From: Erodium maritimum
Taxonomy: Eukaryota > Streptophyta > Magnoliopsida > Geraniales > Geraniaceae
Direction of reading: 5' to 3'
NCBI GenBank assembly: GCA_963921825.1
Contig: OY997589.1
Span: 74,508,523-74,572,522, forward strand
DNA length: 64,000 bases
The translations under genes and the position numbers were made by a program. Numbering within the stretch: position 1 is the first letter of the stretch; each line of letters opens with the position of its first letter. Shown piece by piece: positions 29,161 through 64,000 of this stretch. The notes below the pieces were generated by a model. It had not been told where the DNA came from. It did not search any database and saw only the letters and a program-made list of their open reading frames with translations.

Positions 29161-29177
29161 AGGCTCTGATACCAAAT
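29161..29177 (-). other. Element B primer binding site (initiator Met tRNA)
   Basis: The minus strand reads TTTGGTATCAGAGCC just inside the 5' LTR; TGGTATCAGAGC is the common plant retroelement site complementary to the initiator-Met tRNA 3' end. Confidence 0.88.
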
Positions 29178-35627: not shown

Positions 35628-35699
35628 TTTATAATTCGATTGACGTAAAAACTCAATTGGATAAATGAAAAATTCAAAGTACTTTTTAAGAGTGGTGTT

Positions 35700-36304
35700 A
35701 TGGATGCAGTTCAAAGATATAATGATAAGCTAAAGAACTAGAAGGAAAGCGAGAGATGCAAAGTATTCAAAAAAATGCCTCCCGACCTGCCTCCCTCTCC
35801 TCCTCCGAAACGCCCCCTCCTCTCTCATGTTCATCTGCAACCTCCGGTAGATTTCTCCCAAGAACAATTGTTCGATTTCTTCTTAGAGTTTGGCCAAGTC
35901 AGTCGAGCTTTCATCCTTTCCAAACAGACCAAATCTGGCAAACGTTTCGGGTTTGTTTTCTTCCTCAACAAGGAGGATTTAGTCTCTGCTCTTGCTTCTT
36001 TGAATCTCTCTTGGCTGGGTTCGGCTCGTCTGATCGTGGACTACTCTGTTGGCCATGTGCGTAGCCTCTATCAACAACCGGTTGCTCCTGCTTTGCAACC
36101 CCTCGTAGGCCCTTCCAATGCTCCTCCAGGCTCCCGCCCCTTCAAAGATGTCGTCTCCAACACCCGTTTCCCAGTGGGTTCAGCGGCTTTACTCTCCTTC
36201 TCTGACTCCCCCAACCCAAGTCGTTCTTCTCTTCTCGCTTCCTCAGTCATCGAAGTGGCCTCGAGTTGCATGACAGTTGACGCCCTGCAGTTTTCACACA
36301 GAAA
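35700..36304 (+). mobile_element. LINE ORF1, RRM part
   Basis: An ORF starting at ATG 35775 encodes a proline-rich start followed by an RRM (about residues 30-95: FFLEFGQVSRAFIL ... GKRFGFVFF ... ARLIVDYS). RRM-type ORF1 proteins are typical of plant L1 LINEs and bind the element RNA. The reading is open up to the point where an LTR-like insert begins (about 36305). Confidence 0.75.
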
Positions 36305-38870: not shown

Positions 38871-38884
38871 CGTTATGACTTAGA

Positions 38885-39140: not shown

Positions 39141-39365
39141 TCAGAATTGGCACTTCATCTTGATTACTCCCATTCCACTGATTCCGTCTCCTTGATCCTC
39201 TCTATTCTTTCCTTATGAGTAGAGTTGACTTCTCTCATTTAATCTCTGTTATTTCCTTCCTTGTATAACCTGTAGCATCATGTATAAATATGTTATGTAA
39301 TTCATTGTATTGATCAATTCAATCAGAATACATTTTACCTTTCATTGCTTGTTTGATATTCTTCA
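39141..39365 (+). repeat. Copia 5' LTR (left edge uncertain)
   Basis: The short sequence before the primer site, ending ...TTTGATATTCTTCA, has TATAAATATG (about 39282-39291) as a possible TATA box. Its left end was not resolved, and it may be truncated. Confidence 0.5.
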
Positions 39366-39377
39366 TGGTATCAGAGC
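39366..39377 (+). other. Copia primer binding site (initiator Met tRNA)
   Basis: TGGTATCAGAGC follows directly on the LTR end ...TTCA, the standard position. Confidence 0.88.
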
Positions 39378-39391
39378 AAAACGGCTCTAAC

Positions 39392-41750: not shown

Positions 41751-41751
41751 T

Positions 41752-43447: not shown

Positions 43448-44103
43448 GTCGACAATGGTGACAACCACCGATGCGCCGTCTATTCAAGGCTGAGCCACCC
43501 CTAAGTTGGTCCCGCTCGTGCACGCTACCTCGTACTGCCTCCCACAAGCTTCTCCGCCATCCCAAATCGCCTCATTGGCAGCCGCGATCATCATCGTGTC
43601 CTCCTTACCTCCGTCCCCATTACAAGCAGACGCTCTACGTGTTATAAATTATTAAAATATAATTATAATTGAGCTTTCAATTATCCGCTTAAACTTTTAG
43701 TTGAGTTAAAATATAATTAAAATGTGATATAAGAATCTGGTATCTCCCAGAGTTAACTTACGATTGTATATGGTGTATAAGGTTGCGGTTCCTTTGTCTC
43801 CTGAAATTGGTGCCATTGAGGAAAATAATAGAGCTGAAACTAGCAAGAGGTGGTGCAGTGTGGTCATTGTATGTTGTGGTGATGATGAAAGAGCATGGTG
43901 TGGAGGTGGTATTTATAGCTGATAGAGGTTTGGAGTATATTGCTCAATCAATCAATCAAAACACATATTCTAAACAATCATATTTGAGTGTAGCATGATA
44001 TGCATATAGAGTTAAATTCATTGGAAGATGATACCAAGAAATGTGAACTTCATAGTGTGAACATGGTAGATTGTTTTCGATAGTTTCACTTGACATTGTG
44101 TCT
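43448..44103. other. Unassigned DNA, pre-insertion site of the LINE at 44124
   Basis: No gene is recognised. It contains a short open stretch (43783-43998) with no known domain. It is continuous with 46784 onward before the LINE inserted. Confidence 0.4.
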
Positions 44104-44123
44104 AAAATGTATATCAAACTGTA

Positions 44124-46763
44124 GGTAAGGATGTGCCCTCTCTCCTCTAATCTTTGTCTTGGTTGCAGAAGGCCTAAATCAGATCATGAGAGCTTCAGTC
44201 CAAGCCAATTTGTTAAGAGGTATTCAAATGATAACAGAAGGCCCACAGATATCCCACCTACAATTTGCAGTTGATTCTATCTTCTTCATACAAACCAAGG
44301 AGGACATCATTCCAAATTTAAAATATGCTCTTCACATGTTTCATCTCTCTTCTGGTTTGGCAGAAAACTATACAAAATCATAAATCATTCCTTGCAATCT
44401 CAATGAGGCTGAGATATTACAGTTAACATCCATGCTGGGATGTAGTCAAACCTCCCTCCCTTTCAACTATTTGGGATTTCCCCTTGGATCTAATCCAAAG
44501 AGAATCAAAACCTTGGAACCTATTCTCAAGAAGAACAAAGCAACCTTGGGTCTTTGGCAGGCTAAATTGCTCTTCTTTGGAGGTATAATTACTTTGATAA
44601 AGTCAACTCTAGGAGCCCTTCCTCTTTATTACTTCTCAATCATTAGAGCTCCTAAAGGAGTTATTGAGTCTCTTGAGAGATGGAAAAGAAAACTTCTATG
44701 GTATGGGAACCTAAATGCTAAAACCTTCTGCAAACTGAGCTGGAACACAGTCTGTAAACCAAAGGAAGAGGCAGGTTTGGGGATTAAAAATCTCACCCTT
44801 ATGAATATATCTTTACTCTCCAAGTGGTGGTGGAGATTTGCCCTTGAAAGGGCCTCCCTTTAGAAGCTTGTTATCTGTGGAAAATATGGCTGGAACACAT
44901 CAGAATGGGATTTGTCAAACTTCAGTGAGCTTGGACAAGGAAGCTTTATGCAGCATATCTTATCTCTAAATGACGATCCTAGGTTTTCAGGGCTATTTGG
45001 TTTATCTGAACTCTCTTGGACACTTGGGGATAGGCATAGAATACTTTTCTGGGATGATATTTGGTGGGGAGAGATTCCTCTTAAGACTCTCTACCCTAGA
45101 CTCTACCTCTTATCCCAAACCAAGAAATTGTTAGTTTCAGATGCTTACATAAACTCCTCCTGGGATTTAAACTTCAGAAGGACCCCTAGAGGCAGAGCTG
45201 AATTTGACTAGATGACTCTTCAATTCATTTTAAATGGTGTGCATTTTCAAAATAGACAAGAATCCTTAGTGTGGCTGGGGATCCAAGGGGCTTTTCAGTA
45301 AGGAAATGTACACTTTGTTGTAGCAACAAGCTTTAACCTCTTCATCTGATTTCAACTGGTCAAAGCATATATGGACACCTGGAATACCTCCCCAGATTTC
45401 AGCTTATTGTTGGCTAGCCTTCCATGAAGCAATCTCATCCAAAAGCTTCCTTGATTCCAGAGGAATGAATCTCTCCCTGCAAGATCAACTCTGTAAGTAC
45501 TGTAATTGAGATTTTGAGGATGGTCCTCACCTCCTACTCCATTGCCCTAGAGCTTAGCAAACGTGGTGCCTGATTATACATTGGTGGTAAATCACTTGTG
45601 TAACTCCAGCCAATCTAAAGAGCTTATTAAGTTCTTGGCATACCCTCATAACCTGCAAAAACAAAACCCCTTGGAAAAACATAGCTCAAATTTGCTGGTG
45701 GCAATTATGGTTGCTAGGAATTCCTTATTATTCAATGGTGTAATTACTCAAGCCCCATAAATCTTCTTAAAAATAAAACACCAAGCCTACAGTTGAGAGG
45801 TGGCCAAATTTCGGAATTCAAAGGTCTATTTCTCTTTCAGTCAATGGGAACTATCCCCTCTTTCATGCAGTGCAATGAGATCATTACAGTAGGAATTGGG
45901 CTGTTGGGGCACGGTTTATTGGGCGGAAAGGAAGCTTCAGGTGTTTTTTGGACCGCAAGTTTCTTCTTATTGGTGTTGGTTGTTCCCATTTTCTGTTCTC
46001 TATTGGCTCTATATACTATTCTGGTTATTTCCTCCTTTTGGGGTGGGGTTTGGGTTGGGTGCTTGGGTGGGTTTGGGGAAGAGTGGTGAGTTTGGTAAGG
46101 TAAGTTTAGGTTGTTGTGTTTCCTCTGTTTGGGAGTGTGACTTCCTTCTTTTCTCTATTCTTCTTTGAGTGTAGGGTAGTCTCTTTCTAGGTTGAGTGGC
46201 TCCTTGGCTTCTTTTTTCTTTTGCATGTCTCCTTTGGTTCTTCCTCTGCTCAACAAACCTGGACCCTATTCTGCTCCATGCTCTTATCATTGGAGAGCAT
46301 ATTATCATCATACTTCAGATCAACTAGGAGCAGTAAAGCTCCCTCGACAACAGAAGCTCAGATTCCATCTCAGATGATCTCCCTTGGCAACAGAAGCTTT
46401 GATTTCATCATTCCCTTCAGTCTCAATTCCTCAACCCATCAATGTTCATTCTTTGGTTCCATTAAAGGATCAAACTCAATTCTGAGGCCTCTACATATCA
46501 TCCTCTAATTATCCTCGAACCATACTCTTACATCAATCGGGGCTTCTTGGAGTGCAAGGAAAGACTGTGTTGATTGGGCTTTTTCTCTCCAAGTCCTTGT
46601 TGTTCTCTTTTGGTTTGGTGGTTAAGTTGCTTTTACGTCCTTAGTTTTCCTCTTATAATCGACATATGATCGATTAGGGTTTTTTTTTGTTTGAACTGTA
46701 GCTAGTTCTTGTTCCCTTTTTTCCTCAAAAGAGGGTTCTTAATGCATTAGATTTGCCGATAAA
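44124..46763 (+). mobile_element. 5'-truncated L1-type LINE with 20-bp TSD
   Basis: The insert starts inside the RT (GCALSPLIFVLVAEGLN) and continues through a thumb region (PFNYLGFPLGSNPK ... LWQAKLLFFGGIITLIKS) and the zf-RVT region (GDRHRILFWDDIWWGEIPLK), then a long non-coding tail ending GCCGATAAAAAAA. AAAATGTATATCAAACTGTA lies exactly on both sides (44104-44123 and 46764-46783). The RT active site reads FAVDS instead of FADD, and several stops and frame changes follow, so it cannot work. The exact TSD shows a simple target-primed insertion. Confidence 0.92.
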
Positions 46764-46783
46764 AAAATGTATATCAAACTGTA

Positions 46784-47632
46784 CACAAATCTATAGTAAA
46801 TTGAAACGAGAACAAGACTCATACATGAACTACTCGTAACGAAATGTATTTAAGGATCGTCACCTATCAACTTGAGCCTTGAGTAAAACTTTAGTTGTTT
46901 GAATCTTGTAACTGTTTGATAAGCGTTTGGGATTCTTCACCTATCAAATTGTGTTTGAATGATGTGAATTTTCCTGTTAATTATTTGATAAGCGCTTGGG
47001 GCTCTTCAACTATCAATTATAAAGTTTTATTCTTGTATTGAATACTTTAACATCATATAAATTAAAAAGAAACATGTTGATAAAGGATGTTGAGTGATTA
47101 GATCTTGAATCTGGCCTCTCAGCCAACCAAGTCAATTGGAGGTCTTGGGGAGGGTGAGTCTTGTGGGCAGTGTCGACGGTGTTAGGGCTACGATCGATGG
47201 AGGGGCGTTGGATGCGGTCTACCCTAGGCAGTGGTCACGAGTTAGGTTCGGGGATGGAAAGGAGAGCGATCGTAAGAGGACTATGGACGGACGTTTGGCC
47301 TTCTTCTAGCATCGAAGAGGCTTTATATGCTCCTGAATCGGCGTCGGTGGCATATATCGAGGCACTCGTGCCGTTAGAGGCACATGAGGAGAAACTTCGG
47401 GGACCACGGAAGGTTGTGCATGGTCGATGGTTGTCAGGGCCGATGTTTCATAGTGTGTTGGTGGTGTGGAGGCTATGAGGAAGGTGGAGCAATGAATCTA
47501 ACGAGGATCGGTGAGAAGAGATCAAACAACGAGCGACTGGAAGTGAGAAAGTGCATAGAATCCTAGAGGTCAACTTTTTATTTCAAAATTTTTATTTGTA
47601 ATTATTACTATTCATCATATTGAATTACATTT
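46784..47632. other. Unassigned DNA with a repeated ~34-bp motif
   Basis: Two near-copies of a unit, 46914-46947 and 46983-47016, begin TTTGATAAGCG and end CTATCAA; each begins and ends with inverted TTGATA/TATCAA. Further right, a GC-rich stretch (47161-47478) is open but shows no known domain. Confidence 0.4.
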
Positions 47633-50310
47633 TTTTTTATCAGAAATTTTTGAAATTTTATAAACCAAGCCTTTGAAATAAAGGACTTGATCAAGGGAAA
47701 CCCTCAGAGTGAACTTACAAACAATGGCGACTTTACAAAGTCCCAACCAAGTAAACTAAGGATTCAAGTAACCAACTTATATGGACATTGATCCACAACC
47801 TAAACGTTAATTACCACAACTGCTACTAGAAAACAAATAGCAGCAGAGGAACTACTAAACAGTTTCAAATTCCTACCCCACTACACAAAATTACAACAAG
47901 AACAAATTTTCAAACACAAGAAAAAGACCTATGTACCAAAACCCTTTATGATCCCCACCAAACCAACCCCAAAATCAGTGAAACACAATAAGCCACCCCA
48001 CAATCTTCTCAGCAGAAATTGCAAAAGCACCAGCAACACCGTTACAACCAGCAAACCAACACCACACAATGTACCAGAAGAGGGAGGCGACCCAAAAACT
48101 CTTTTTCCTACTCCAAGGGAAAGTAAAGAGAATTATCTATCGGCTCCAACAAGACAATAGCACCAGCCACAAAACAAGCCTCCAGAAATCCAAAGGTTGG
48201 AAAGGTGAACAGTTCCCAAGACTAGCTAAAAGTGATCTTCTTCCGAATTTTTCAAATCACGAAAGTCATCCTCATAATTAGTCTCCAGGTCCAATGTAGG
48301 ATTTAATTCAATTTCCAAGTTATCAAATTGCTCAGCCACTAGTTCATCTGCAATATAAGCATTGATACCCAAAGTCTTGCAATATTCCCAAGTCCCTGCT
48401 CCTTCAGGTTTGAAGATATGATTATTTTTCTTAACAGTCACTAATGGAACAGAGGATTGAAAAGTGCAGTTTGTTGCTTTAACCTTGGACTTTGATCTTG
48501 TACAATAAGCAACGGGAAGAGTAGACTTGTTCCTCTTCTTCTTAACAGTGGGCCCTCTAATATCAAACAAGGTTTTGGTTGGACTTGTCCCCAATGAAAC
48601 AGACACAGTCGTCGGAACAATGTTAAATGAGGGTGTCTCGAGTTTAGGACCAACACCTTCAACATTAAAATCTTCCTTGAAAGACAGAGGAAGGGAAGGC
48701 ATTAAATCTTGTTGGCTGCACAATGATTTCTCTTTGAGGAATTCAGGGAAATCCGATTCTTGGAAATCCTTCTCAAAAGTTGAAACCAAATTAATGTATG
48801 CACGAGATTGGCTAGGACCAATAATCTTCTGTAAAAGTCCTTCACTCTCCTTAGTAGTATCAACTTCGACCGATGAATCAGTAAGGTTGGTGGTATCTTC
48901 AGTAAGTGATACATTGAAATCACTTGACATTGAGTTGCTCCCAGATTCCTTATCAGATGAGAAAGTGCTAGTTGTTGTTGACAGATGTTTGACCCCAGGA
49001 ATGGAAGGTATAATAGAAATGTCAACTGAACAAGCCATGACATTGAATTCCTCCTCTTCCAATAATAAACATGTTTCTTTATAAAACTTCAAATATTCTT
49101 GAGAATGGATCAAAACAAAAGCTGCATCCAAATGTGTATACAGATAAGAGCCCAGACCCCGAGTAATCTCTCGAAATGACTCAATACACCATCCAAGTAT
49201 AGGGATTTCATAAAGAGCAACCCAATTAAATTTTCCTCTGGACTTGCACAAAGCAGCTTTGTCTGGAATCATTGTCATCCAAGCCTTTAACCATAACACG
49301 TTGTTCTTCAAAATCTCTTCCTCAAAGTTTTGATCTTTGCAGTAGACCAGAACCACTCTGTTTCCCAACGATTTAATAATCATTTCGAATCCACCTCCAG
49401 TCAAAATCTCTTCCATAATAGTTTCAACTGCAAATTATCATGTAGAACAGCAAGTTGGTCGTTATCCAACCATTCCTTATGTGCTTCAACAATCAAACCT
49501 TTAGGACTAGATTTTAATACCTCTGAAACCATTGTGTCTTTCTTCCTCCAGTTAAAATTTGACTGGCCTCTTAAGTTTAGATTGAAACCACTCTTGTTCC
49601 GATCTCTGTTCCAAGACTTTGTCACAAACAATCTAAACCCCTTTAATACAAACCCATTGAAGGTCTGTATAGCCTTGATGACTACTTCAGTAGTCCTAAA
49701 CTGAATAAAACCGAACCATTTCCCCCTTAAATTTGGCCTGGATGGAGTTTGAACTTGCACCATGTCACCAGATTCACGAAACAGGTTTTCCAGCAACACA
49801 TGAGAGGTTTGAGAAGGCGAATTAAGTATGAATATCCGATGATTGTCTTCCTCCTGTAAACCGACATCCAACGATATGACTCTTCTCAAGTCACAACCCA
49901 ACCCTTCATGGTAACCTTTGAAACCACCCCCACCACATGAGTTTATTTCTCAGTGTTCAAAACTGGTGTTCTCTCAAAGCCTGGAGGTTGTGCAATGGAG
50001 GAGGAAGAAGCCATATGCGAGAAAATCTGACTAAGACCGACGAAATAATCATGCCAAATCGGAGCCATGAAGAGGCCCTCCGGAGGAGGAAAAGCCCGTA
50101 GAAGAGGGAGCCAAGAAATGCGCGATAAGTACTGAAAAGAGGAGAAAACCAACCTTGAATGAAGAATTGGCCCGAAGATGAAAGAAACGACGACGAGTCG
50201 GCGACTGACTAGTAGAAACGGACCCAGAACGCGCCGGAGGTGAACTGTAGAAGCAACCCTAGGAATTGGGGGCGCGTGAGGCGCGTTCTTCCAATTCAAA
50301 AACTTTCTAC
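47633..50310 (-). mobile_element. ORF1-only LINE (minus strand)
   Basis: The order on the minus strand is a GC-rich leader, an RRM ORF1, then about 590 bases of non-coding tail ending CTGATAAAAAAAAA at 47633. No endonuclease or RT sequence is present between ORF1 and the tail. ORF1 is much better preserved than in the older copies. A target duplication was not resolved, so the 5' edge is approximate. Confidence 0.75.
48226..49985 (-). pseudogene. LINE ORF1 (RRM, DUF4283-like), frameshifted
   Basis: Likely an RNA-binding ORF1 protein. The start is near 49985 (MASSSSIAQPPGFERT), with a frame change near 49943. An RRM follows around 49850-49640 (HRIFILNSP ... GKWFGFIQFRT ... KGFRLFVTKSW). A second frame change lies near 49401-49416, after which 49416-48226 is open for 396 codons. 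That part has a DUF4283-like core (RVVLVYCKDQNFEEEIL ... FNWVALYEIPILGWCIESF), a serine-rich linker, and a C-terminus GTWEYCKTLGINAYIADELV ending in acidic residues. That C-terminus matches the one at 61525-61727 (GTWDYVKKVGVKAL), so the two are related families. Confidence 0.75.
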
Positions 50311-50676
50311 CTTGAAATTAAATTATTAATTTTGTCATTAAATTTTTATATTATAATCTGAATGAGTATTATAAGGCCCAATAAGCAGTTAATACTTGTA
50401 AATGTGATAGCCTAGCTTTGGTTGAACATTTGGTTTTACTAAAAACAAGGTTTTAAAAGTTGTTAGGTGCTAGTCGAACGACTATAATTTTGGAGGATTA
50501 ATTGGAGACTAGACGGATATTAATCAGGGACTAATCAAATTTGTATTTTTTTTATTTTTAATAGCTATATTACTATGTATAGAAACAAAATATGAATTTC
50601 TTTATATTAAAAATGGTAACAAATATTTAAAATACTTAAAAAATAGCACCAAACAATAAAGAAGCATAACTCTTAA
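50311..50676. other. AT-rich flank, probable outer MITE arm (left)
   Basis: Around 50449 the sequence GTTTTAAAAGTTG, then AGGTGCTAGTCG, resembles the ends of a common plant MITE. An inverted partner appears near 53190-53252. This would make the Harbinger element an insertion into an older small TIR element of about 400 bases. Confidence 0.35.
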
Positions 50677-50931
50677 GAGCATCCACAACGCTGGCCGCGG
50701 AGCTGGTGAGGAGTTGATGGCGGTGAGCAGTCGACGGCGGGGAGCTGGAGGTGAGCTGGCGGGGAGTTTCTTTTTCAGCGCTGGCGGGGAAAAGAGACGT
50801 TGAGCTCGCCGCCAACATTTACTGCTTGCGTTGAGAGTCGTTGGGCCTCGTTGACAGCACCGACCGTTGGACCTCCACACGCTGGCGACACGTGGCAAGG
50901 CGCTGGGAGCTGCTGAATTTAATTTTCTCCC

Positions 50932-50941
50932 TTTATAAATA
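50932..50941 (+). promoter_or_regulatory. TATA box of first SANT/Myb ORF
   Basis: TTTATAAATA lies 87 bases upstream of the ATG at 51028, with a CT-rich leader between. Confidence 0.6.
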
Positions 50942-51027
50942 GCAAACCCCCATATTTTCAAACGCATCAACAAAATTCTCTCAACCTACTACTCTATTCT
51001 TTCTCCACATTTCATTTTTTTTTTGCA

Positions 51028-51995
51028 ATGGAATTTGATCTCAACGACTGGGGTAATATGGTCACCGAGTTGGGTGGCGACATGTTTGAAACGCCAACTC
51101 AACAATTCTTTCCTTCGATCCAAGTATCCGGAGCGACAACCGAACAATCTCCAATGGTTATCGAATCCAGCGACGGTGATTCGAGCAAACAACCAAAAAA
51201 GCCGACGCGAAGACTGTGGACCGTCGGTGAGGATGAGCGTCTTGTTCGCGCTTGGATGCACCATTCCTTCGATTCAATTCTCGGGAATGGGAAGCATAAC
51301 ATCAAGTATTGGGGGGCCATCGCCGAAGAAGTCTTTGCTATGCGTGGACCGGATGATCCTAAGCGGAGCTTGAAGCAGTGTAAGGACCATTGGGGCCAAG
51401 TGAATCCTAAAGTGACGAAGTTTATGTGGTACTATGTATGGTGTATGAATGACCACAAGAGCGTCCGTTCCGATGATGAAGTCACGGCATTGGTCGAGGA
51501 AATGTACTTGAAGAAAGAAAAGGCTCAATTTGTGTAGAAACTTTGTTGGAGGCTCGTCAAAGGCGAGCACAAGTGGACGGCTAAAAATTTTGCCGTTGAC
51601 ACGGACGAGGGTGAAGGCGAAGGCGAAGGCACACCGGTAGTAATTTCAATCCACCTACCGACTCGGGCAAGAGCACTCGTGAAGATACGCCTGGGGAAGA
51701 CAGTGAGCACACCACGGGGATGTCCGAAAGTCCGGTGTACAAGCGGATTATAGGTCAGAAGGCAGCAAAAGCTGCGAATCTCAAAGGTAAAGGCCTTGTA
51801 TCAACAAAGAAGGAGCTTGTCAAGCGTGTTGATGCGGCTCATTTAGCTGCGAAGGAAGCAAATCCAGCGAAGCTAAAACTCATATCCTTCGATCGATTGG
51901 TGCAAGAGGACGCCAAGGACAAGTCGGCAATGACCGCCCCTAAGCTTGAGGCATACTTTGCGACCCTTGAGATGTTCCGCAATTTGATGCAGTAG
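51028..51995 (+). pseudogene. Harbinger SANT/Myb-like ORF (first copy), frameshifted
   Basis: PIF/Harbinger elements use a Myb/SANT-type protein to bring the transposase to the nucleus and to the element ends. From ATG 51028 the frame is open to 51537 and carries a trihelix/SANT domain around residues 62-125: RRLWTVGEDERLVRAWM, YWGAIAEEV, then KQCKDHWGQVNPKVTKF. The C-terminal part continues in other frames to 51995, including SPVYKRIIGQKAAKAANLKG as in the NAM-associated tail of these proteins. At least one frame change and a stop near 51535 break it, although the DNA-binding part is open. Confidence 0.75.
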
Positions 51996-52255
51996 TTTCG
52001 CCTCATGGATTATCTGGTTGTCTCCCCAATGTTTGTGTTTTTTTTCATTAATGAATTGTAGCCCTTCTGTTTCGTTCAATGCATCTTTTTTAATTAAAGG
52101 TCGGTTTCATTTTCGTTCGTTTTTTTCATCGTATTTCATCGGTCTGATTTTCTGTTGTCATTCGTTATTTAATTATGTGTTGAATCATACTTTGAATTGC
52201 ATTTGAGGAAAATTTCAATTGAATTTACCCTCCATTCCACTTGCCTTGGTTTGTG

Positions 52256-52265
52256 GATATAAATG
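52256..52265 (+). promoter_or_regulatory. TATA box of second SANT/Myb ORF
   Basis: GATATAAATG lies about 115 bases upstream of the ATG at 52381. Confidence 0.5.
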
Positions 52266-52380
52266 CCACCTCTTCCATCAATTATTTTCACACCTCTTCA
52301 CTTCAACACCTCTCTTCCTCCAAAAACACCTCTCTTCCTCCAAACCCCTCGCTAGCCTTCTATTCTCTTTCGAAGCGCCA

Positions 52381-52773
52381 ATGGCCGACAACGCAGCAGC
52401 CAACCCGTGGCACCATGAGGAGGAGATGGTTTTGGTGCTATGTTGGCTACATGACGCCCGTCCGGGGCCAAATAATAGGTATTGGCCGAAAGTGTTCGCC
52501 AACTATGTCGGAAATGCACCGGCCGACACCCTGCGACGCACACAGAAGCAGTGCAGGGACCATTGGCAGAGGCTATCCCTAAAGATGTACCGTTTTCAAT
52601 TTATGTTACTGTGAAGCACTACATGCTCGCCTTCCAAGATAAAACGAAGTTCTTCTTCGAACTGCAGCGGCGGACCGGTATTATGTCCAACATGGCCACC
52701 ACTTCACGAAGTTCTCGCTTTGGGAGATCGTTAAAGACCACCCGAAGTTCCTCCAGTACGTTCACGAACTGTA
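52381..52773 (+). pseudogene. Harbinger SANT/Myb-like ORF (second copy), frameshifted
   Basis: From ATG 52381 it reads NPWHHEEEMVLVLCWLHDAR, YWPKVFANYV, then TQKQCRDHWQRLSLKMYRFQ, a second SANT domain clearly different from the first copy. The frame changes just after it; another frame then reads FTKFSLWEIVKDHPKFL up to a stop at 52771-52773, with one internal stop. It has its own TATA box, so it is a separate gene and not a downstream exon of the first. Confidence 0.75.
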
Positions 52774-53084
52774 AATCGTGAACATGCTATGTTGGCTTTC
52801 CCGTTTCGGTGATAATAACGTGTACTTTCCTGTTTCGGTGATAATAACGTGTACTTTCCCGTTCATGAGCTTGTCGAGCTTGTTTGTGTTATTTTCTTCT
52901 TGTTCTCAATAAAAAAAATTGTTTAATTATTATTTTAATTTACACCGCTGGCGGCTACCCGTCGGTAAAAAAATCCTCCACTGCATGTTGCTGGCGTGTC
53001 CTGCAGGCGGTGAGCTAGCGGTGAACTAAAAAACAATATTTTAATGCTCACCGCCAGTGCCGACGGTGAGTGTTATGGATGCTC

Positions 53085-53263
53085 TAATATCATCAAAACC
53101 AAACAACTATGCAAAACCATCTAATTATTTTAATTTAATCATTATAATATACAAATTTGTTCTAAGTGTCTTGATGCCTAATCGCATCAGTTAAACATAA
53201 AATAGGGCTTAGACAGACGCCTAAACAATGCCAGTCAAATTTTTTAGAACACTAACTAAAAGC
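53085..53263. other. Right flank of the Harbinger, probable outer MITE arm
   Basis: Reverse complement of the left arm motif (TTTAGGCGTCTG, AAAATTTGACTGG). No gene. Its end coincides with the LINE target duplication that starts at 53264. Confidence 0.35.
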
Positions 53264-53304
53264 ATAAACTCAATTTTGTGAAACTTGGAAAGACTGACAA
53301 AAGG

Positions 53305-54322
53305 ATGGTCTCTCTCACGACTCCTCAACGTAGCCGGAGATCCAAAGCTTCGGTCACTGGATTGTTAACGGAGGTCACAGCGACGCTAGGTTCAATCGTG
53401 ACGGCTTTGAATCTTGTGTTAACAATCACAGAGGGATCGATGAAGACGCTCGGGCGATCAAAGAAGCCTCATGCCGCCAAGGTTCGGAAAGTTGTGATTG
53501 AGAAGAAGATAGCTTATATTCTTCGTATCACCAGGAGGAAGAGGCGACCGTCTGGTGGGGTTGATGATGCTGTACCACTTGTCTCTGGTGCCAAGGTTTC
53601 AGCTACAGTTTCTGGTGCAGCAAGTGTCGAGGACACCAAGGTCAGCGCTTCCCACTCGAATGCTCGGGTTTTAGTTCGCGGATCGATTTCAGAGGATCAA
53701 CAGGCCGTTGTAGAGAAGAGAGTATGTCGCCTTCGCCGGCCTCGGAGGTTTGGTAAGTTCTTTGAACAAAGAGATGAAATTTTTGTTCACATTTTACCTT
53801 TTGAAGCCTCGGAAGGATGGACACACAACGTCTTCAGTCCATTTGGGAAGATTTTATCCGTCAAGGTCTCCAAACGCCCAAATCGAAGTAACCGATATTT
53901 CGGTTTTGTACGCTTCGAGTCGATAGAGGCAGCGGACAAGGCGGTAGAGGTCATGAATGGATTTAACCTTGAAGGATACATTTTGTTCGTAGCCAAGGCT
54001 TGGCATCGTAGGACTGTGGATAATTCGGTGCCGGATTTACACCAGTCGAAGGCATGCTTTGTTTCCGATGTTCCGAAATAGAGCACTCTCGGCTGGCCAG
54101 TTTCGCCAGTTATTCAACTTTCAGAGATCAACTCGCCGGAGAAGGCTTCTGCTGGGACGTCGCCGGTGTTCGAAGCTTCGCCGGAAGAGACTGATCATGG
54201 CACGATTGGTTCGATTTCAAAGCTCCTGTATGTTACGGAAGAGATCAATTGCAATCGGGTTTCCCCCGTTTCTTTAGATTCTACAGCTGTTGACGAAGAT
54301 CGTACTCGATTTGGGGCAGGTG
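53305..54322 (+). pseudogene. LINE ORF1, N-terminal part with RRM
   Basis: The first ATG is 53305. A basic N-terminus is followed by an RRM around 53780-54005 (EIFVHILPFEASEGWTHNVF ... RYFGFVRFES ... EGYILFVAKAW). A TAG lies in frame at 54079-54081; the same frame is then open to the solo LTR D (VSDVPK before it, FEASPEETDHG after it). The sequence continues in the same frame beyond the solo LTR, at 57345. Confidence 0.8.
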
Positions 54323-57300
54323 TGTCACGCCCCAATTTCAGTAAAACCGAACTCGGGACGCGAACGTTTAAAATAATAAAACAATTGAAACCTGTTTTGA
54401 ATAAACACTTTAAAATCACCATTTAGTTAATCAAAATAATATTTACAACTCAAAAACGTCCCAACAATTGGACAAAGTACAAGGTATCCGTCACTAGACT
54501 CAAAAGATAAAACCCGGACTCCGCTCCTAGCTCCTCAAGCTTCGAGAGCTCACCTAGTCCGTCCCGTGATCGGTACCTGTAGGAAAAACAGCTAGGGGTG
54601 AGCGTTTGCTCACCACCACGGATTACAGATGGACTACAACATAATTAACAGACAATGTCGGTAACACCAATAACAAACTCACATCGGGGAACACTATCCC
54701 CAACCCAAGTACTCCGACTGACACACACCCACTGTTACCTTCCTCGACCGACTCAACACTCTGACACGTAAAGTAGACCCAACACAACAATCACGACCTC
54801 TTCCAAGGACTCAAAAGACCACCACACAACACCCAAGATCACAAAGGATCGCACACCAAACAAGATCACAAAGGATCGCATACCAGCTGCTCAGTAACCT
54901 CCCTCAATCACGCGCTTTGCCGAACTCTCAGGCCAGGCGGTCGACCTGTATCAGTAACCTATCTCTCTCACGCGCTTCCCCGACACAAAGTCGGGCTAGG
55001 CGGTCGACCTGTCACGCTCACAACCCCAAACCACACACGCGCGGCCAGGACCCCTTTACTGACGGGCGGGCCCCCTACCCCGTCTGAACATGCAGACGCG
55101 TGTGCTCGAGGACCCCCGTTTCATGAAGCGGGCCCCCAACCTCAGGTAACCACAATCACAATCACAATCACAAACAAAGTTCAACAAACAGCAACAACAC
55201 AAGTTCAGCACTCCACAGGCACTCATGGCCACCCAAGACACCAACCGTAAAACACGGACTCAACAACCCCACAGGCACTCACGGCCTCCCAAGATACACC
55301 AACAGTAACTCACGGGCTCAACAACCCCACGGGCACTCACGGCCACTCAAAACCACCAATAGTAACTCACGGGCTCAACAACCCCACGGGCACTCACGAC
55401 CTCTCAAAACCACCAACAGTAACTCACGGGCTCAACAACCCCACGGGCACTCACGGCCTCTCAAAACCACCAACAACTCACGGGCTCAACAACCCCACGG
55501 GCACTCACGGCCTCCCAAGACACACCAACAGTAACTCACGGGCTCAATAACCCCACAGGAACTCACGGCCTCCCAAGACACACCAACAGTAGAGACACGG
55601 GTTCAACAACCCCACGGGCACTCACGGCCTTCCAAGACACACCGACAATAAAGACACGGGTTCAACAACCCCACGGGCACTCATGGCCACCCAAGACACA
55701 CCAACAGTAAAGACACGGGTTCAACAACCCCACGGGCACTCATGGCCACCCAAGACACACCAACAGTAACGACACGGGTTCAACAACCCCACGGGCACTC
55801 ATGGCCACCCAAGACACCAACAGTAAAACACGGGCTCTCATGGCCACCCAAGACACAACAGTAAAACACGGGCTCTCATGGCCACCCATGACACAAAATA
55901 CACAATCAACCTCCGGCATAACCAATGCCTCCAACAGTCCTAATATCAACAGTTTCACAATCAACCTCTGGGCATGGTCATATGCCTCCAATACTCCTAA
56001 TATCGATAAGTTCACAACTAACCTCCGGGCATGGTCATATGCCTTCAGTAATTCTAACATCGATAAGTTCTCTGCTCCTACGACACTACTAAGTGTCACA
56101 TGCTTTTCTAATATTCGCTACGTTCCCGTATCATGCCTTTCTAATATTCGATAAACCTACTTAACCACGACACCCCGGTGTCACATGAATTCTACTGTTA
56201 ACTTTCCCTACTCAGGGCCGATATCCGGCTACTTTTCCCTACCTCGTATATGTTCTCCAAAAGTGCCCAAATAAGCCCCGGCGTAATCTCAGTCACTCGC
56301 CTAGCTTTCCTTTGCCTCGGTCCGCAGCACGATCTAAAAGAACACAATTTTAAGGCACTTTTAAACTCGCAGGAATAAACTGAAATTCAATAAACTTAAC
56401 GCCCAAATGTAACCCCGACAATGTCGATCACTCCCAAACTTCCCAATTACTCGACATTGTCGATAAATGACCCGCAAAGGCCCGATTCGCCCGACATGTC
56501 GAATGCCCGGGTTTTGGAAATATCCTTCCGGGGCTCCAAAAATTCCCGTTTTCGTTTCTACGGTCTTAGAATAATTCAAGGGTCCCAATGCACTTGACGG
56601 AATCGAATTCCGACTTCCGAGTCATTTAATTAACGTTTAAAGTTTCTAAACCCGTCAATTACAACTTTCACATTTTAATTCCAAATCTCGATTCGGTTGT
56701 GGATAAATGGTCTGGGGAACGTTCTAAACCACCCGAACACAAAACCCGATCACCCGATCACCCGAGCCGTCTCCCTCTCTCTCTAACTTCTCTCTTCTTT
56801 TCTATTCTTTTTCTCTTTTTTTTTCCTTTGAATTAGTTGTGGCCGACCACCCCTCTAAACCATCACCTTTCGTTTTCCCCCCAAAACCTAACACCACCAC
56901 TTGTTTGATAAGTGCCAAGGTGGGTCCCACACCTTTTTGGAACAATATCTAGAAGATATTTTCCAATCAGATTCGCGAAAATCGGACGTTTCGGGCCCCG
57001 AACGGGCACTTTTTCCAAGAAATTACGAAACTTGACAGGCTACAAGGAAACGACTCAACTAAGACCGCTGCGACGACGGCTAAGCTTTTTGGATCCAAAA
57101 CGGTCCTTGAATGGACTAAAACGTCGCTCGGTTGACTTTTCCAGCGAGAAGTCAACATTTCCCAAAACGATCAGAAAGTTGCCCTGAGTCCCCCGGAACT
57201 CACTTTGGTCGATATCGGGGTCAACTTAAGTCCGGTATGACCCTCGGGGTCAATTCTAGGTTCATTTAAGTGTCTGTCTTAAAATATTTAAATTTTCCTG

Positions 57301-57344
57301 CTTTTCGCAGGTTTGACTGGCGTTGACCGAGAGTGGTTATTACA
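54323..57344 (-). mobile_element. Solo LTR D, Ty3/gypsy type (3.0 kb)
   Basis: It begins TGTCACGCCCCAATTTC and ends GGTTATTACA on the plus strand. AGGTG flanks both sides exactly (54318-54322 and 57345-57349). It is related to A and B but distinct in sequence. It carries a long tandem array and the shared GGAAACGACTCAACTAAG block (57046-57092). No internal region is present. Confidence 0.93.
55205..55900. repeat. ~57-bp tandem array in solo LTR D
   Basis: About eleven units of 54-60 bases, each with AACCCCACGGGCACTCACGG or a close variant, follow head to tail, then shorter units near 55800-55890. Confidence 0.92.
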
Positions 57345-57879
57345 AGGTGATTCCCGTGATTCGGGGGAAGAGGACTCCCGTGATTCTGGGGATGACACTG
57401 ATCGCGCGTTGATGAAGCCTGTTGATGTCGACGCTGTTACGGTTCCTCAGGTCCAGTGTATTGTAGATGGGCTTGTTTCGCAGGCCTGTCTTAATACAGA
57501 TGGGCCTCAGGTGACTGATCCACAGCTTAATGTCGAGGGATCTGGCCCAGCCCAGGTTTTGCAGCTGGTAGAATCTGAACCAAGTCAATATTCGGGAATG
57601 GTTCAACCCTCTCAAAAGGCGGCCTCGCCGTGGAAGGACGCTCTTGTCAAGAAACGGGAGAGTCGTCCGCCTAAACATTTAACGGAATATTACACTTTAT
57701 CGTGCAAGCCGATTTCCGCTAGAGATCGGGATAGAGTGGTTCGCCCCGTTGACATTGGGAAACAAATTGAGCAAGCTAGAAATGGAGAAATTCAAATCGT
57801 AGGGTCGTCTCAGGGTCCCGACGCATGGACTGCAATCCGTGAATTGGCTGCCAAGAAGAAGGCCGCGTCGAGCCGTTGA
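57345..57879 (+). pseudogene. LINE ORF1, C-terminal part
   Basis: Continuation of the ORF1 cut by solo LTR D, open to the TGA at 57877-57879. It is acidic near the start (DSGEEDSRDSGDDTDRAL) and basic at the end (LAAKKKAASSR). It lacks the DUF4283-like core, so this ORF1 is a different type from the one at 60003. Including the part before the LTR, the protein is about 517 codons long. Confidence 0.8.
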
Positions 57880-58096
57880 CGTTTTGACGGGATTCTCTTT
57901 TTCTGGTTTTTTGCTTCTTGTTTTTCTCTTTTTAAGAAAATGTTAGGCCTTTTGGTTCCCCTTATGTTGGAACCCCCTTGATATTTTGGTTGCTACCCTA
58001 CTTCTTCTTGAATCAGGGATCTCCGTCTCCTTTTCTGGACTCGGTTATATTAATAAATTTTCGAGCTTATAAAAAAAAAATAAACTCAATTTTATG

Positions 58097-59384
58097 TTTA
58101 TCAATGAGATGGTTCAAGTTCAACTTCATTCAACTGGGACTTTGACCCAGTGGTCATAATTTAATTCACCCGCCAGTAAACTTTTTTGCTTGTTCTGAAT
58201 CATATGTTCAAAATGAAACCTTAGATGCAGACAGAAGAAAAAACAAATGCTCAGCCTAGGTTAGCTGGGTCTGAACAACGTGTTTCCTTAGTCTGAGAAA
58301 TAAATGAGAAGTATACCTATCAATATAAACTTACTTGCTCAGTACGTTTGGATTTGCCAGAAAAAAACAAGTAATATTGTTGATTAAGCTGATTGAGATC
58401 TTAATCATTTCATCTCAGATTTGATCGTGAAAGTGTGAGGTTTTGGAAATTTATTATTGTAGTTTGTAGATATGATATTTTTTTTAGTGGATTGTAGATG
58501 TGATATAAAAATACTTTTATACTGTTTTTTTATATTTATTTATGGAATGGGCCATAGGCATTAAGTAGGTAACACAAAAGGGCAAAGCAAAAGCAGACAA
58601 AGAAAGCAAAACAGTGACATGAAACCCTCCTCCCCTTTTATATCAAAATCAAATGTACCTCTAATTCTTTTAGCTCCACCCATTACATAAATAAGTATTA
58701 TTAGGCTTATGCATCTTTTAAATGTAGGTCCATTTCGAAAGTTATATTTCTCGACTTTGGCGTTTTGTTCTTTTTCTTGTCACACTTTTTATATCATCCG
58801 AAAATATTTGATTTTTTACTCCATGATGGATTGGATTTAGTCGAGCCCCTTGTCATTGTGCAACCAAATTTTATAATAATTGGTTTTTTGATCGCCTGGT
58901 GAATAAAATAAATGTTTTAACTAAATCAATAAACTTCAATGGATATCCAACAAAAATAATCAATATTTTATTTATCGTAAATATGTAGAGTAAATGGATG
59001 GGGCCATAAAAGGCACAGGTATATGCAGGAGCTATGTTGCACAAGTGGGAAAGGAAATTATGGGAGTTTAGTCCAAGTCTGACAAACGACAACTTCGATT
59101 TTGTTTGGGCTATAAATGTTCTAAAAATATCTTAAATAAGAGTACGTACATTGCAACGGCTCATTAGCTACATATGAGGTGCGGTGCAACGGAAATAAGG
59201 ATCGTTAAGACGATGACACAGTGTAGGAGACATAACGGGCACGACACAACGGATTTGATGTAGTCTATTTAGTCGAACTACTGTGTTGTAGGTTCGATGC
59301 TTCCCTAATCAAAAGGAGCAACGACTAATCAACATCTTCTCACGTGGCGTCACGTGTCATCTCTTATTAATAACGCCACCCATC
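58097..59384. other. AT-rich intergenic DNA
   Basis: No coding region, RNA gene or transposon end was recognised. Two CACGTG/CACGTGT boxes near 59341-59357 could be promoter motifs of whatever lies to the right, but the LINE at 59402 now separates them from it. Confidence 0.45.
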
Positions 59385-60002
59385 AATTATTACAGATTCT
59401 AAAAAAGCAGATTCAGATGTCACAGTTGAGATGGAGACTGCTAAAATATCTCTAGCCATAACAAAACCATATTGATCAAGTCGAAAACAAATCGAGCCTA
59501 GGTCGTGTCCGCCGCCGCGCCGTCACATCTTCTCCGGGTCGTCTCGTCTCTCCGGCCACGTCTCGACAACCTCTTCTCTGGCTCGTCTCGACAGCCTCTT
59601 CTCCGGCTTGTCTCGACAGCCTTTCTCCGGCTTCGTTTCAGTTTTTTTTCTCCGGCCAATCTGAGATAGGGACGGGAGAACGCCCGGCTTCTGAGCTTTG
59701 CAGCGCCGCCATTCGCAGGCCATGTCTTCGTTACAGTTTACAGGCCGTCCATTTCCTGTTACGTCGTAAGTCGCGGTTTGTCCTCGCTATCAACTCTGAA
59801 CCGAGTCTGCAGGAAACATCGCCAGATATACACCACCTTCAGTGAAGCCATAGGAGAGCTGTGACTAAGGTTCTTCAATCTCTATGTTGATCTCTTTGTT
59901 GATCTAGAACGCGCCAGCACACGCGTCCCTTCTAGGTTAGCGGTTTTTGCCGGCCGTCTTCGTTGCTTGCCCATTCTGCCACGATCGATCTCCGGGTTTT
60001 CT

Positions 60003-61727
60003 ATGCTATTGAAAGATTCACTGCTGTGGATTCCCAGGTCGGCTCAGAAACGCAAGATGAAGAGGGATAATCGAAAGGGGAAAGCGCCTATGGTTGAGAA
60101 GTTTGTGAAGAAAAGAGCTGGAACCAGTCGTATTCAATCGAAGGTGGTAGTTCCAGTTGGTAGCTCGTCTTCTCAGCCTAGTTTTCGCTCTTTAAATTTG
60201 GGCTCTGATCGATGGCCATTAGAGGGCAGGGTTTCCTCGATTGTTCAGAGATTGGAAGCTACGAAGCCATTTAGCCCTGAAATTGGTCAGACTACAAGGG
60301 CGGCTCCCGTTGTACCCCAAGAGGTCCCAACTGATTCACACGTAAATGGGGGAAGAAAGCTTTTCGTTTGCAATATTCCTCCCGGACGGGATGATGCTTG
60401 GCTGAAAAATCTGTTTGGATCGGAGGGAATTGACCATTGCTTTGTTTGTCGAAGATCGAACCGCAATGGGAAGTTTTTTGGCTTCGTGACAATGAAGCCA
60501 GGTCTGTCTAAGGGCATTATCGAGGCCTTTCATGGTACTTCACAAGATGGGTACAAGCTCTTGGTCGACTTTGCAAAACCAGCGGCGAAATCAACATCCA
60601 GATCGCATAGTTTTCAGAAGGAACCACTTAAAGAGAGAGCACCTACTCCGATTGTGTATGGCTCCTCAGTTGATGGATCCCGAGATATGGATCTCTCGGG
60701 TTTTCTTGTTCTGGCTCATGCAGATTGGAACACCGCTCAATATTTGGGTGCTCTACGGTCACAGGGACTGGAAGACATTGTGCTCAGATCTTTTGGCAAT
60801 CGTATTTTCTTGCTTACGGTGCTGAATCCTGCTGTTAGGGATTTTCTTGAGTTGGAGAATTGGGGTACTTTGAAACCTTGGTTTGACATTTTAAATAATT
60901 CCAGAATTCTAGTCACGGTTGGTGGTTTTTTCCAGTGGGTTAAGGTGGAGGGTATCCCGTTCCATGGAAGAACGATTGAGTCTGCAAAAGCTATAGGGAG
61001 CTCATTGGGGACCTTACTGCATTATGTCTGTGATTTGGAACTGGAAACAGCTGGGTTTGATTCAATTTTTTTGCTGATTCACAGAAATACTAAAATTGCT
61101 ACTATGGAGTTAAACTTTGCTCTGAAAAATTCTGTGTTCCCGTTGCTCGTTACTGGAGTGCTAGCATCGGCAGTCCCAGATTCTTGTCACCAGTTAGTGA
61201 ACTTACCAGAGTCTTCCTCAGAACAGGTTGGTGATATTCAAGTTGATAAGGTTTCGGATAATTCTGAAAATTCGAAGGCCTGTTTACATCCCAGTTTAAA
61301 CTCGATTGATTTTGTCAAAGACTCATCTACTTCCAAGGGTGTAACCTCCATTAGGACTTTGGAACCGGAAAAGTCTCCCAGCCCGAAGTTGCGTGTGTCG
61401 CAAGTCATCCAAGTTTCCAAAAATCAGAAGCAAAACCGCTTGTTTTCGAAAGCTCCCGTTGTTTACACCACTCCGGTTTTCACTCAAAAGATCCCCAATC
61501 GTAGTTCACCTGAGACAAGGCAAGGTACTTGGGATTACGTTAAGAAGGTCGGAGTTAAAGCTCTGAAATCATCCGAGTTTGTCATTGACCAGTTTAACAA
61601 CTTGGATTTGGAGTTATCAGAGCGTCTTGATCTGGAAGGGAATGAAGATGATAACTATGATGATGTGTGTGAGGACGAGGATTTAGACTCTTTAGAGTCT
61701 ATTCCTTCAAACCTTTTGCAAAACTGA
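60003..61727 (+). CDS. LINE ORF1 protein (RRM, DUF4283-like), intact
   Basis: Open for 574 codons from the first ATG at 60003; the frame is open further upstream only with non-ATG codons, and M at 60057 is an alternative. It probably coats LINE RNA and helps it back to the nucleus. The basic N-terminus (KRKMKRDNRKGKAP, NLS-like) is followed by an RRM around residues 120-195 (KLFVCNIPPGRDDAWLKNLF ... GKFFGFVTMK ... GYKLLVDFA). Next is a DUF4283-like core (ILVTVGGFFQWVKVEGIPFH), a serine-rich linker, and a C-terminus QGTWDYVKKVGVKAL with an acidic tail. No damage is seen. It is a transposon protein, not a host gene. Confidence 0.88.
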   Translation: MLLKDSLLWIPRSAQKRKMKRDNRKGKAPMVEKFVKKRAGTSRIQSKVVVPVGSSSSQPSFRSLNLGSDRWPLEGRVSSIVQRLEATKPFSPEIGQTTRAAPVVPQEVPTDSHVNGGRKLFVCNIPPGRDDAWLKNLFGSEGIDHCFVCRRSNRNGKFFGFVTMKPGLSKGIIEAFHGTSQDGYKLLVDFAKPAAKSTSRSHSFQKEPLKERAPTPIVYGSSVDGSRDMDLSGFLVLAHADWNTAQYLGALRSQGLEDIVLRSFGNRIFLLTVLNPAVRDFLELENWGTLKPWFDILNNSRILVTVGGFFQWVKVEGIPFHGRTIESAKAIGSSLGTLLHYVCDLELETAGFDSIFLLIHRNTKIATMELNFALKNSVFPLLVTGVLASAVPDSCHQLVNLPESSSEQVGDIQVDKVSDNSENSKACLHPSLNSIDFVKDSSTSKGVTSIRTLEPEKSPSPKLRVSQVIQVSKNQKQNRLFSKAPVVYTTPVFTQKIPNRSSPETRQGTWDYVKKVGVKALKSSEFVIDQFNNLDLELSERLDLEGNEDDNYDDVCEDEDLDSLESIPSNLLQN

Positions 61728-61735
61728 TATCAAGA

Positions 61736-62118
61736 AGTTCCTCTCATGGAATATGAGAGGAACAAACTCCGTTCAGAGACGACGGAGTGTTAGTGGCACC
61801 ATCAGGCGAGTGCAACCAGAATTTGTTCTCCTACAAGAAACAAAGGTATTTTCTCCTGCATTTCTTAGGAGTTGTGGTTTTCTTGGTATTTGGGAGCACT
61901 TGTTCTCTTCATCTGAAGATGCATCGGGTGGCTTGTTATTTTGGCTTTTGTGGTTGCGTCGACATGGTTTATTATATAGCTCAGTAGAGGAGCCGGTGAA
62001 TGACACCTACTTGAAGCTGCAGACACTTAGTTTTTCACTGTTCAGGGCAGGTGGTTTGTTGCAACCGGTTACGACCTTTGTGGCTTGGCAGAGTTATCCG
62101 ACAGGGTGTTTTGTCTAA
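61736..62118 (+). pseudogene. LINE ORF2 stub (endonuclease N-terminus)
   Basis: Directly after ORF1 the sequence reads FLSWNMRGTNSVQRRRSV, then PEFVLLQETKVFSP and EDASGGLLFWL, the start of an AP-type LINE endonuclease (SWNxRG and QETK motifs). After about 80 residues the similarity ends and the frame runs into the 3' UTR. The rest of the endonuclease, the RT and zf-RVT are missing, so the copy cannot make its own RT. Confidence 0.82.
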
Positions 62119-62329
62119 TTCCTGTAGCTCTTCAGTTTATGTCAGTTGCTGATATTGGTTTGCTTGTTTGTTTTCTTTAAGCAGACGTTGTTATTTACTT
62201 CTTTTTATAGTTTCGGTTTTTGGCAGGAATGATCTTCATGGTCTATTCTTCCTGCTTTCATTGTACTCCTTCTCAAAGTATAATGAAATTTCTCATCGCT
62301 TATCAAAAAAAATTATTACAGATTCTATC

Positions 62330-64000
62330 CCAATAAAAACTCACTATTCTCCACCAACTTTTGTCACACCAATTTCAAATCTTCTCTACATTCGTATACC
62401 CTCTCCATCTCTTATTTCTCCCCATCTTTTTTTATGGACGACTCGTACCATTCGTTTTTCCATGATCATGATTGTATCGCGCCAAAAGATCAAAACCAAC
62501 TTTAGCGTGGAGGATGTTGATGTCGTTGTTCGAGTCAAACATCCCAAAAAACACATGCCAAACCCACAAATCACAGGACGCTACCGCTTACAGCATAATG
62601 GTTGGATCCCCGTGGTGGTCTCCCCGACTGTAGGCTCCTTGCAATGCGGTTGGACAATTCTTCCACTCCCAATGCATGCAGCCAACCAATCATATTGTGG
62701 AACACTCGGTCGTAACCCGATTCGAGTAATCGCTGCATGTCTTTTGGATTTGGCTTCCACTCGTATTCCTAAATGAAAACCTCAATAAAGGATTTGGCTT
62801 TCGGGGCCATGAGAGAATGATCAAAGTGATGGATCATCTAAAGGGCAGTAGGGACGTTCCAAGGGCATTCTAGTTCTACGAGGCCTATGAAGCCTCAGTG
62901 AAAACACAAGTATAGTAGGTGTGCATACTTAAGTCAGGCCCGAGTTGGATTTTGGTGTCCCGGGATGAGTATCAATATCGTTCATCGAATAGAGGTTGTA
63001 AGTTCCTTCTAGAGTCGGACGTTCAGGGTGCCTCCCCATGCAAGACCTACCTCGTCCGTACGAAAGTCCACAAAACCGCCTAGGGCCTCTTCTATCTTGA
63101 AACTTGTCTCTATTGTATGTCTGTCCCAAGGAAAGTCCGAGACAAGGGCCCACGTCTAAATCCTAAAGAACGATAGAGTGGCTAGGTTGATGCCCGGTCA
63201 GAGATCCTCCAGGATTAGGGGTACACGGCTGAAAGATCATAGTTCTTCTCTCAAAATACTATCCTTCTCCGCATGGGAAATGAAGTAGAATCTGTTGATG
63301 CCCCAACCAAGGTCCTAAATGACCAGGCTGTCATGATGCCAGATTTTTTCATAACCCCTTCTATGGATGTCCGGTCATAGCTCTAGGTTGTGAACAATCT
63401 CCTTGCAAGGCCAAATGCGGCGTAAGAACGGGCTCGGTCCGTCATTGGGTTCCTCGGGATACAAATGACGGTATCCTTCTCTTCCTTCATTTTTAGGTCA
63501 TCGAAGCTCTCTTGAAGAATCATGGTGTATCCAAAGGAAGTATGTGTTCCTTCTTGGGTGTGCAAAAGTGGCAGGATTGGCAGTCATGGGGATGAGAGTG
63601 GGAGGGGGGCATTTTCCGTGGCCGTTGACTAGATTGTGCTAACCAAGCCAGTTAGCCCGAGAGGAGGTGATGGAGGATCGACTTCCTGTCCAGTAATTAG
63701 GGAAATTCAGTCTTGTAGGTGCCTTCTCATCCCATATCGGATGTCAGTTATGTGATCTTCCGAATCGTGGAGGAAACCTTACTTCCATGTTGGAGGCGAG
63801 GAGCCGGTGAGAGCAATGCCATCAGGTCGACTCCCAGGTGGACGATTGTCGCTGCTATGGTCTTGCATGTGGTGGCAGACCAAGGCACTTGTTATGGGAT
63901 TTCTAGGAGGCGCATAGTTTTTCTACTAGAAGTTATCGAAGAGAAGGGGTGGGAGTTTCTGGGGTTTCTTTCTAGAGTATGGATGTTTTATAACCTTGTG
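62330..64000. other. Right flank of the young LINE, unassigned
   Basis: The sequence is continuous with 59384 before the LINE inserted. From about 62434 to 62776 there are open stretches in different frames, the longest ending at 62776, with no domain that could be named. From about 62800 to 64000 the DNA is GC-richer and has stops in all frames. It resembles old retroelement DNA but no motif supports a family. Confidence 0.3.

Follow-up and report, generated by a model that had tools for sequence, protein, structure and literature searches.

The closest described counterpart of the elements considered here, a group of long interspersed nuclear elements (LINEs) with a first open reading frame (ORF1) coding for an RNA-binding protein and no recognizable reverse transcriptase (RT), is the mammalian HAL1, the original paper on which is reportedly that of Bao and Jurka (2010). 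Our elements lie in a 64,000-nt stretch of the genome of Erodium maritimum (contig OY997589.1, forward strand, 74,508,523-74,572,522), which as a whole will be called the window. HAL1 possesses ORF1 only, a poly-A end and target site duplications (TSDs), relies on the RT and endonuclease of full LINEs, belongs to a mammalian L1 lineage and is present in nearly 2,100 copies in human (PMC5322556; this and the other papers given by PMC number are drawn on as excerpts); it has been named as likely served by L1 (PMC4161310). As the first-pass annotation of this DNA had proposed, the architecture in the window agrees with that of HAL1: ORF1 and a LINE 3' end without RT are found in four elements (A-D), two of which (B and C) also have poly-A and a TSD. 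Unlike HAL1, there is one copy per lineage here, and the ORF1s show no descent from mammalian L1 ORF1 but are of the kinds found in plant LINEs, with an RRM and a weak DUF4283 match or with zf-CCHC_4/DUF4283 matches. Full BNR-type plant L1 elements carry an ORF2 with endonuclease and RT. BNR elements are likewise said, in the title of Heitkam and Schmidt (2009), to have an RRM in ORF1.

HeT-A of Drosophila carries only a gag-like ORF1 and forms telomeric arrays, unlike the scattered, TSD-bounded insertions described here. It is a non-autonomous retrotransposon, and the R2 and R2/R1 SIDEs of the same genus are internally deleted non-long terminal repeat (non-LTR) elements spread by RT acting in trans; SIDEs differ from our elements in consisting of element ends only, with no protein gene, and in being located in ribosomal DNA (both PMC3414825). 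The SpIREs of human L1 are also shortened LINE RNAs retrotransposed by target priming, with deletions in the 5' untranslated region (UTR), or from the 5' UTR into ORF1, and not in ORF2 (PMC5860796). Celine of poplar shares with our elements a DUF4283 in the ORF1 of a plant LINE and differs in that the full element has an ORF2 with endonuclease and RT; its copies are described as full-length, 5'-truncated or slightly deleted, and the excerpt mentions no ORF1-only class (PMC11288735). No plant family of ORF1-only LINEs appeared among the literature matches listed, which consisted of titles and abstract openings and included few subscription papers.

The proposal to which we give about an even chance is that several unrelated plant L1-type lineages gave rise to ORF1-only RNAs that were copied in trans, that is, to non-autonomous derivatives. 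The evidence was obtained as follows. Translations in six or three frames, with stops as X, were compared with Pfam at E limits of 0.05 to 0.5. On the plus strand they covered the window apart from 1-360, 3600-7690, 9660-16440, 42300-43400, 47700-50330 and 58080-59400, with one of the three frames for 39360-42300 and 53278-54321; on the minus strand they covered it apart from 39350-43400 and 63200-64000, with one of the three frames for 2500-3600. The window's LINE pieces were used as tblastn queries, and RT motifs were scanned for, on both strands of the entire window; the motif scan is insensitive, having missed the RT of the truncated LINE called L below. Exact TSDs were sought as repeats of at least 13 bp adjoining an A-run on both strands, with 20 second-order Markov sequences as control. 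Four matches resulted: the 20-bp pair of L, the 17-bp pair of C, the 14-bp pair of B and one within a low-complexity inverted repeat at 9973, as against one in total across the 20 controls. In a relaxed test, scores were compared with those of 500 random 28-mers from the window, and the number that did as well was 0 for B and for L, 2 for C, 3 for F and 8 for D.

Element C has the following parts:

59402-62310, plus strand: element C, with ORF1, ORF2 stub, tail, A-run and exact TSD
59385-59401, plus strand: 5' target duplication of C, 17 bp, exact
62311-62327, plus strand: 3' target duplication of C, 17 bp, exact
59967-61727, plus strand: uninterrupted ORF1 of C, RRM-like and DUF4283-like, with an acidic C-terminus
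61733-61941, plus strand: ORF2 stub of C, N-terminal endonuclease only (Exo_endo_phos, about 67 codons)
61942-62310, plus strand: 3' tail of C with A-run; the stub frame is open to about 62117, so that the boundary between ORF2 and tail is approximate

Its ORF1 comprises 586 codons from the first TTG, and the matches of this ORF1 to RRM_1 (E 0.026) and DUF4283 (E 0.031) fall short of the Pfam cut-off. C alone among A-F has a recognizable start of ORF2: Exo_endo_phos matches 61741-61941 over profile positions 1-76 of 225 (E 8.4e-4; 19.6 bits against a cut-off of 24.5). This 76-position stub is all that A-F contain of the endonuclease- and RT-bearing ORF2 of an autonomous plant L1, and no RT was found in C by Pfam in the three frames of the element strand or by tblastn on both strands. 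Because the 17-bp TSD is exact and ORF1 is open, C looks young. Just past its 3' TSD lies a fragment of a Plant_tran (PIF/Harbinger-type) transposase (62492-62695, minus strand, E 2.7e-23).

Element B is longer as a consequence of a nested insert:

53278-58079, plus strand: element B, with an RRM-containing ORF1, tail, poly-A and TSD
53264-53277, plus strand: 5' target duplication of B, 14 bp, exact
58080-58093, plus strand: 3' target duplication of B, 14 bp, exact
53278-54321, plus strand: 5' part of B, a short leader and the N-terminal part of ORF1, with the RRM at about 53779-53979
54322-57312, no strand assigned: later insert nested in ORF1 of B, one copy of the 6-bp duplication counted
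57313-57879, plus strand: C-terminal part of ORF1 of B, a 188-aa ORF
57880-58079, plus strand: 3' tail of B with poly-A

The first-pass annotation gave both B and C 17-bp TSDs; the figure is right for C, while that of B is 14 bp exact, or 16/17 if one mismatch is tolerated. Its span for B also took in the insert of about 2.99 kb, which has GCAGGT duplicated at both edges and without which B measures about 1.8 kb. The insert begins like the TGTCACGCCCC repeats of the window, matching them over about 65-126 bp, and contains a tandem array (57-59 bp) and no Pfam domain in six frames. B matches RRM_1 (E 6.8e-14 in the single frame scanned), and its ORF1 has one in-frame stop (54079-54081) in addition to the insert. 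No Pfam match was obtained for the C-terminal part of ORF1. The A-run starts about 190 nt past the ORF1 stop, and the tail has no ORF2 match on the plus strand. No RT was found in B (Pfam, three frames for the 3' part and one for the 5' part; tblastn, both strands); the lone RT-like tblastn match in the ORF1-bearing pieces, at 57903-57715 in the tail of B (E 0.022, 29% over 63 aa), is on the other strand and is taken as chance.

Element A is decayed and has these coordinates:

about 47630-50310, minus strand: element A, a decayed ORF1-only LINE with ORF1, tail and A-run
48226-49901, minus strand: ORF1 of A, with an RRM at about 49632-49835, a weak DUF4283-like part and a frameshift near 49410

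The 5' end of A is placed at about 50310, with no TSD to fix it; its A-run at 47630-47638 marks the 3' end and is preceded by a tail of about 586 nt. ORF1 matches RRM_1 (E 3.2e-7) and, below the Pfam cut-off, DUF4283 (E 0.0044). Neither RT nor endonuclease was found in A by Pfam in three frames of the element strand or by tblastn on both strands with the window's RT pieces. The ORF1s of A and C are collinear, the alignment starting at the RRM and stopping no more than 3 and 14 residues short of the two ends; its score of 240 compares with a best of 65 among 200 shuffles. The completeness of ORF1 in A and C is thus supported by their mutual alignment; in B and D we infer it from the stop plus the tail.

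Element D is an older LINE of the same plan:

35703-38862, plus strand: element D, with an RRM at about 35850-36023

Its RRM_1 match has an E of 9.2e-10. By eye, D is interrupted by other sequence at about 36310-37625; the end of ORF1 passes straight into a short LINE-like tail, and there is no RT in three frames by Pfam. A TSD-like pair of 13/15 occurs at 35688-35702 and 38863-38877. By the RRM, then, A, B and D are above the Pfam cut-off, and C is below it but collinear with A. The earlier description of A-C as LINEs with ORF1, tail and A-run, and with no ORF2 or only its beginning, is borne out with the qualification that the RRM of C is sub-threshold; its claim that older copies follow suit holds for D.

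The two remaining ORF1-bearing elements are far more degraded:

7690-9656, plus strand: element E, a decayed ORF1 (zf-CCHC_4, E 9.8e-5, below cut-off)
11838-16471, minus strand: element F, a decayed ORF1 (weak DUF4283 match, E 0.02; zinc-knuckle-like stretch by eye)

Neither gave an RRM match or an RT match in Pfam (three frames for E, the three minus frames for F), and on their domain matches both likely have, in contrast to A-D, a plant ORF1 of the DUF4283-CCHC kind. F has an A-run at 11838-11844, a TSD-like pair of about 13/16 and a nested repeat at about 12501-15166. Decay has gone too far in E and F for the completeness of ORF1 to be judged, and they are merely compatible with an ORF1-only plan, so that the recurrence of ORF1 and tail without RT can be counted firmly in A-D only. 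Inserted in the 3' part of E, at 9657-11364, is a Mutator-like element whose inverted repeats are 179 nt long and 93% alike; its 9-bp duplication, ATAAAATAA, was noted by eye. The inserts at 12501-15166 (in F) and 54322-57312 (in B) both open with TGTCACGCCCC and have about 126 bp in common at 72%; inserts of this type thus sit within two different ORF1-bearing LINEs.

RT occurs in the window in pieces that are separate from these and that the first-pass annotation had not listed:

44124-46763, plus strand: L, a 5'-truncated LINE of whose ORF2 the RT end and zf-RVT remain, with a long 3' tail
about 1400-3340, plus strand: M, an RT-containing fragment of an old LINE, found with L as tblastn query (E 9.9e-33)

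L matches RVT_1 (E 1.4e-3, below cut-off) and zf-RVT (E 3e-15) and is bounded by an exact 20-bp TSD (44104-44123 and 46764-46783); L shows that LINE RT has been active in this genome. By its own sequence M matches no LINE domain in Pfam (E 0.1). A further scrap, at 39.1 kb, is recognized by eye from one motif, FADD at 39093. No ORF1 was found in L, M or the scrap, and in the approximately nine LINE pieces, six with ORF1 (A-D clear, E and F weak) and three with RT, the two never occur together. Since 5' truncation yields copies with RT only, such as L and M, and not ORF1 plus tail, it is insufficient by itself to account for the pattern. Premature polyadenylation within a full LINE was considered and rejected for A, B and D, where no endonuclease match follows the ORF1 stop in three frames. 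No further LINE domains were found outside these pieces in the frames scanned with Pfam (the coverage gaps listed above apart).

The first-pass annotation had treated the elements as one family, and this did not hold within the window. A blastn comparison of the window with itself gave no match of at least 80 bp between any pair of A-F, the nested repeats of B and F aside. The ORF1 proteins are 24-39% identical in the stretches that align at E up to 0.01, which leaves no close pair and is too diverged for dN/dS, and no ORF1-to-tail junction in the window is common to two copies. Because of the lack of blastn matches, the low ORF1 identity and the unlike tails, the window holds about six different LINE lineages, with one copy of each; what is seen here is the recurrence of an architecture and not the amplification of any one element. 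The ORF1s of C, A and B and the RT of L had no relative among viral contigs, nor did ORF1 of C among plasmids and prokaryote genome contigs, which is weak evidence given that these collections are viral or non-plant.

Under the favoured proposal, source copies consisting of ORF1 and a LINE 3' end would give a polyadenylated RNA, which the ORF1 protein may coat in cis; endonuclease and RT supplied by full LINEs elsewhere would then carry it to new sites by target-primed reverse transcription. B and C have the 3' ends, A-runs and TSDs characteristic of this process, and the elements, which lack RT themselves, most likely borrowed it from full LINEs. We infer insertion in the short form, RT in trans, ORF1 in cis and standing sources; the first of these is favoured by C being young and by ORF1 and tail having been spared. 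The retention of ORF1 to its stop with no recognizable ORF2 after it, in A, B and D, favours standing HAL1-like sources, whereas the ORF2 stub of C is neutral between such sources and one-off RNAs. The pattern involves RRM-type ORF1s (A-D) and perhaps the DUF4283-CCHC type (E and F) too.

Several observations weigh against this proposal. A-F are the set chosen in the first-pass annotation for being without ORF2. There is no second copy of any element in the window, so that no family has been shown, and the 3' tails are not significantly alike in any of 21 pairs including L (300 shuffles each; best D with L, 24/300). In the relaxed test A and E have no TSD, as 37 and 225 of the 500 random 28-mers, respectively, do as well; D lacks a clean A-run, and E is interrupted in its 3' part from 9657 by the inverted-repeat element, so that position 9656, previously taken as its 3' end, is an insertion edge and its own 3' end is hidden. 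ORF1 of B has no DUF4283 match in Pfam and may be of another type or itself shortened. TSDs, which had been offered as proof of insertion in shortened form, establish that both ends belong to one insertion and leave later internal deletion possible; the argument is invalid as stated. Lastly, the cis preference of the L1 ORF2 protein, the stated reason why internally deleted L1 families are not seen (PMC3414825), speaks against easy help in trans, although HAL1 suggests that such help is possible.

It is possible, if rather doubtful, that the elements are instead one-off defective copies, each from a single retrotransposition of a full-LINE RNA from which splicing, RNA recombination or template jumping had removed ORF2, in which case junctions would be unique and there would be no family. 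The lack of a common junction in the window accords with this, the endonuclease stub of C looks arbitrary, and spliced human L1 RNAs do retrotranspose, contributing 131 of 6,609 (about 2%) annotated full-length L1PA1-6 (PMC5860796). The ORF1 stops kept in A, B and D, with no ORF2 beyond them, would however be rare products of random junctions, and four or more of them within 64 kb would be many for a rare event. We consider it unlikely that the insertions were normal ones of full-length LINEs whose ORF2 was removed afterwards by a genomic deletion sparing the TSDs. Internal deletions of 12-200 bp with microhomology and a retained 5' end are described for Hebe copies in a bdelloid (PMC2861651), most helena copies of Drosophila simulans, young ones included, are internally deleted (PMC2330053), and A, E and F are decayed. 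Against deletion, C probably had too little time to lose several kb, ORF2 alone was hit and ORF1 and tail spared in A-D, and tblastn and Pfam (with the coverage gaps listed) revealed no full-length or partly deleted intermediate in the window. That the elements are retrocopies of mRNAs from host genes descended from LINE ORF1 is highly improbable: plant L1 RT is believed to accept mRNAs with poly-A (PMC3747384), but C includes the start of ORF2, and ORF1s without DNA similarity would require several such genes.

The window is marked as seed-plant DNA by its genes, namely a seed maturation protein (SMP), a Transferase family member and Plant_tran in Pfam. A weak DPBB_1 match lies at 43445-43585 (minus strand, E 8.2e-4, below cut-off). 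The segment at 50677-53084 is PIF/Harbinger-like by eye, with similar GAGCATCCA ends, TAA on both sides and Myb/SANT-like domains in two stretches; it gave no transposase match in six frames and is another transposon with an accessory gene but no enzyme. At 20651-33676 there are direct repeats, 93-96% alike, possibly the LTRs of a minus-strand element, with a primer-binding-site-like stretch adjoining 29177 (by eye); in six frames its interior has no Pfam domain, and the one feature noted there, by eye, is a zinc-knuckle-like ORF at 25956-26663.

Returning to the proposal of ORF1-only RNAs copied in trans, a wider form of it, which we advance tentatively and hold to be doubtful, is that plant L1-type LINEs of both the RRM and the DUF4283-CCHC classes have time and again lost all of ORF2 but retained ORF1 and the 3' end, and that such satellites, with RT in trans and ORF1 in cis, make up a large share of the LINEs in some plant genomes. 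Should ORF1-only LINEs recur in plants, ORF1 would be useful to its own RNA apart from an adjacent ORF2, the same question that HAL1 poses in mammals, and plants would supply several independent origins for comparison. Annotations in which DUF4283 or RRM proteins of the ORF1 type are called host genes would then merit a re-check.

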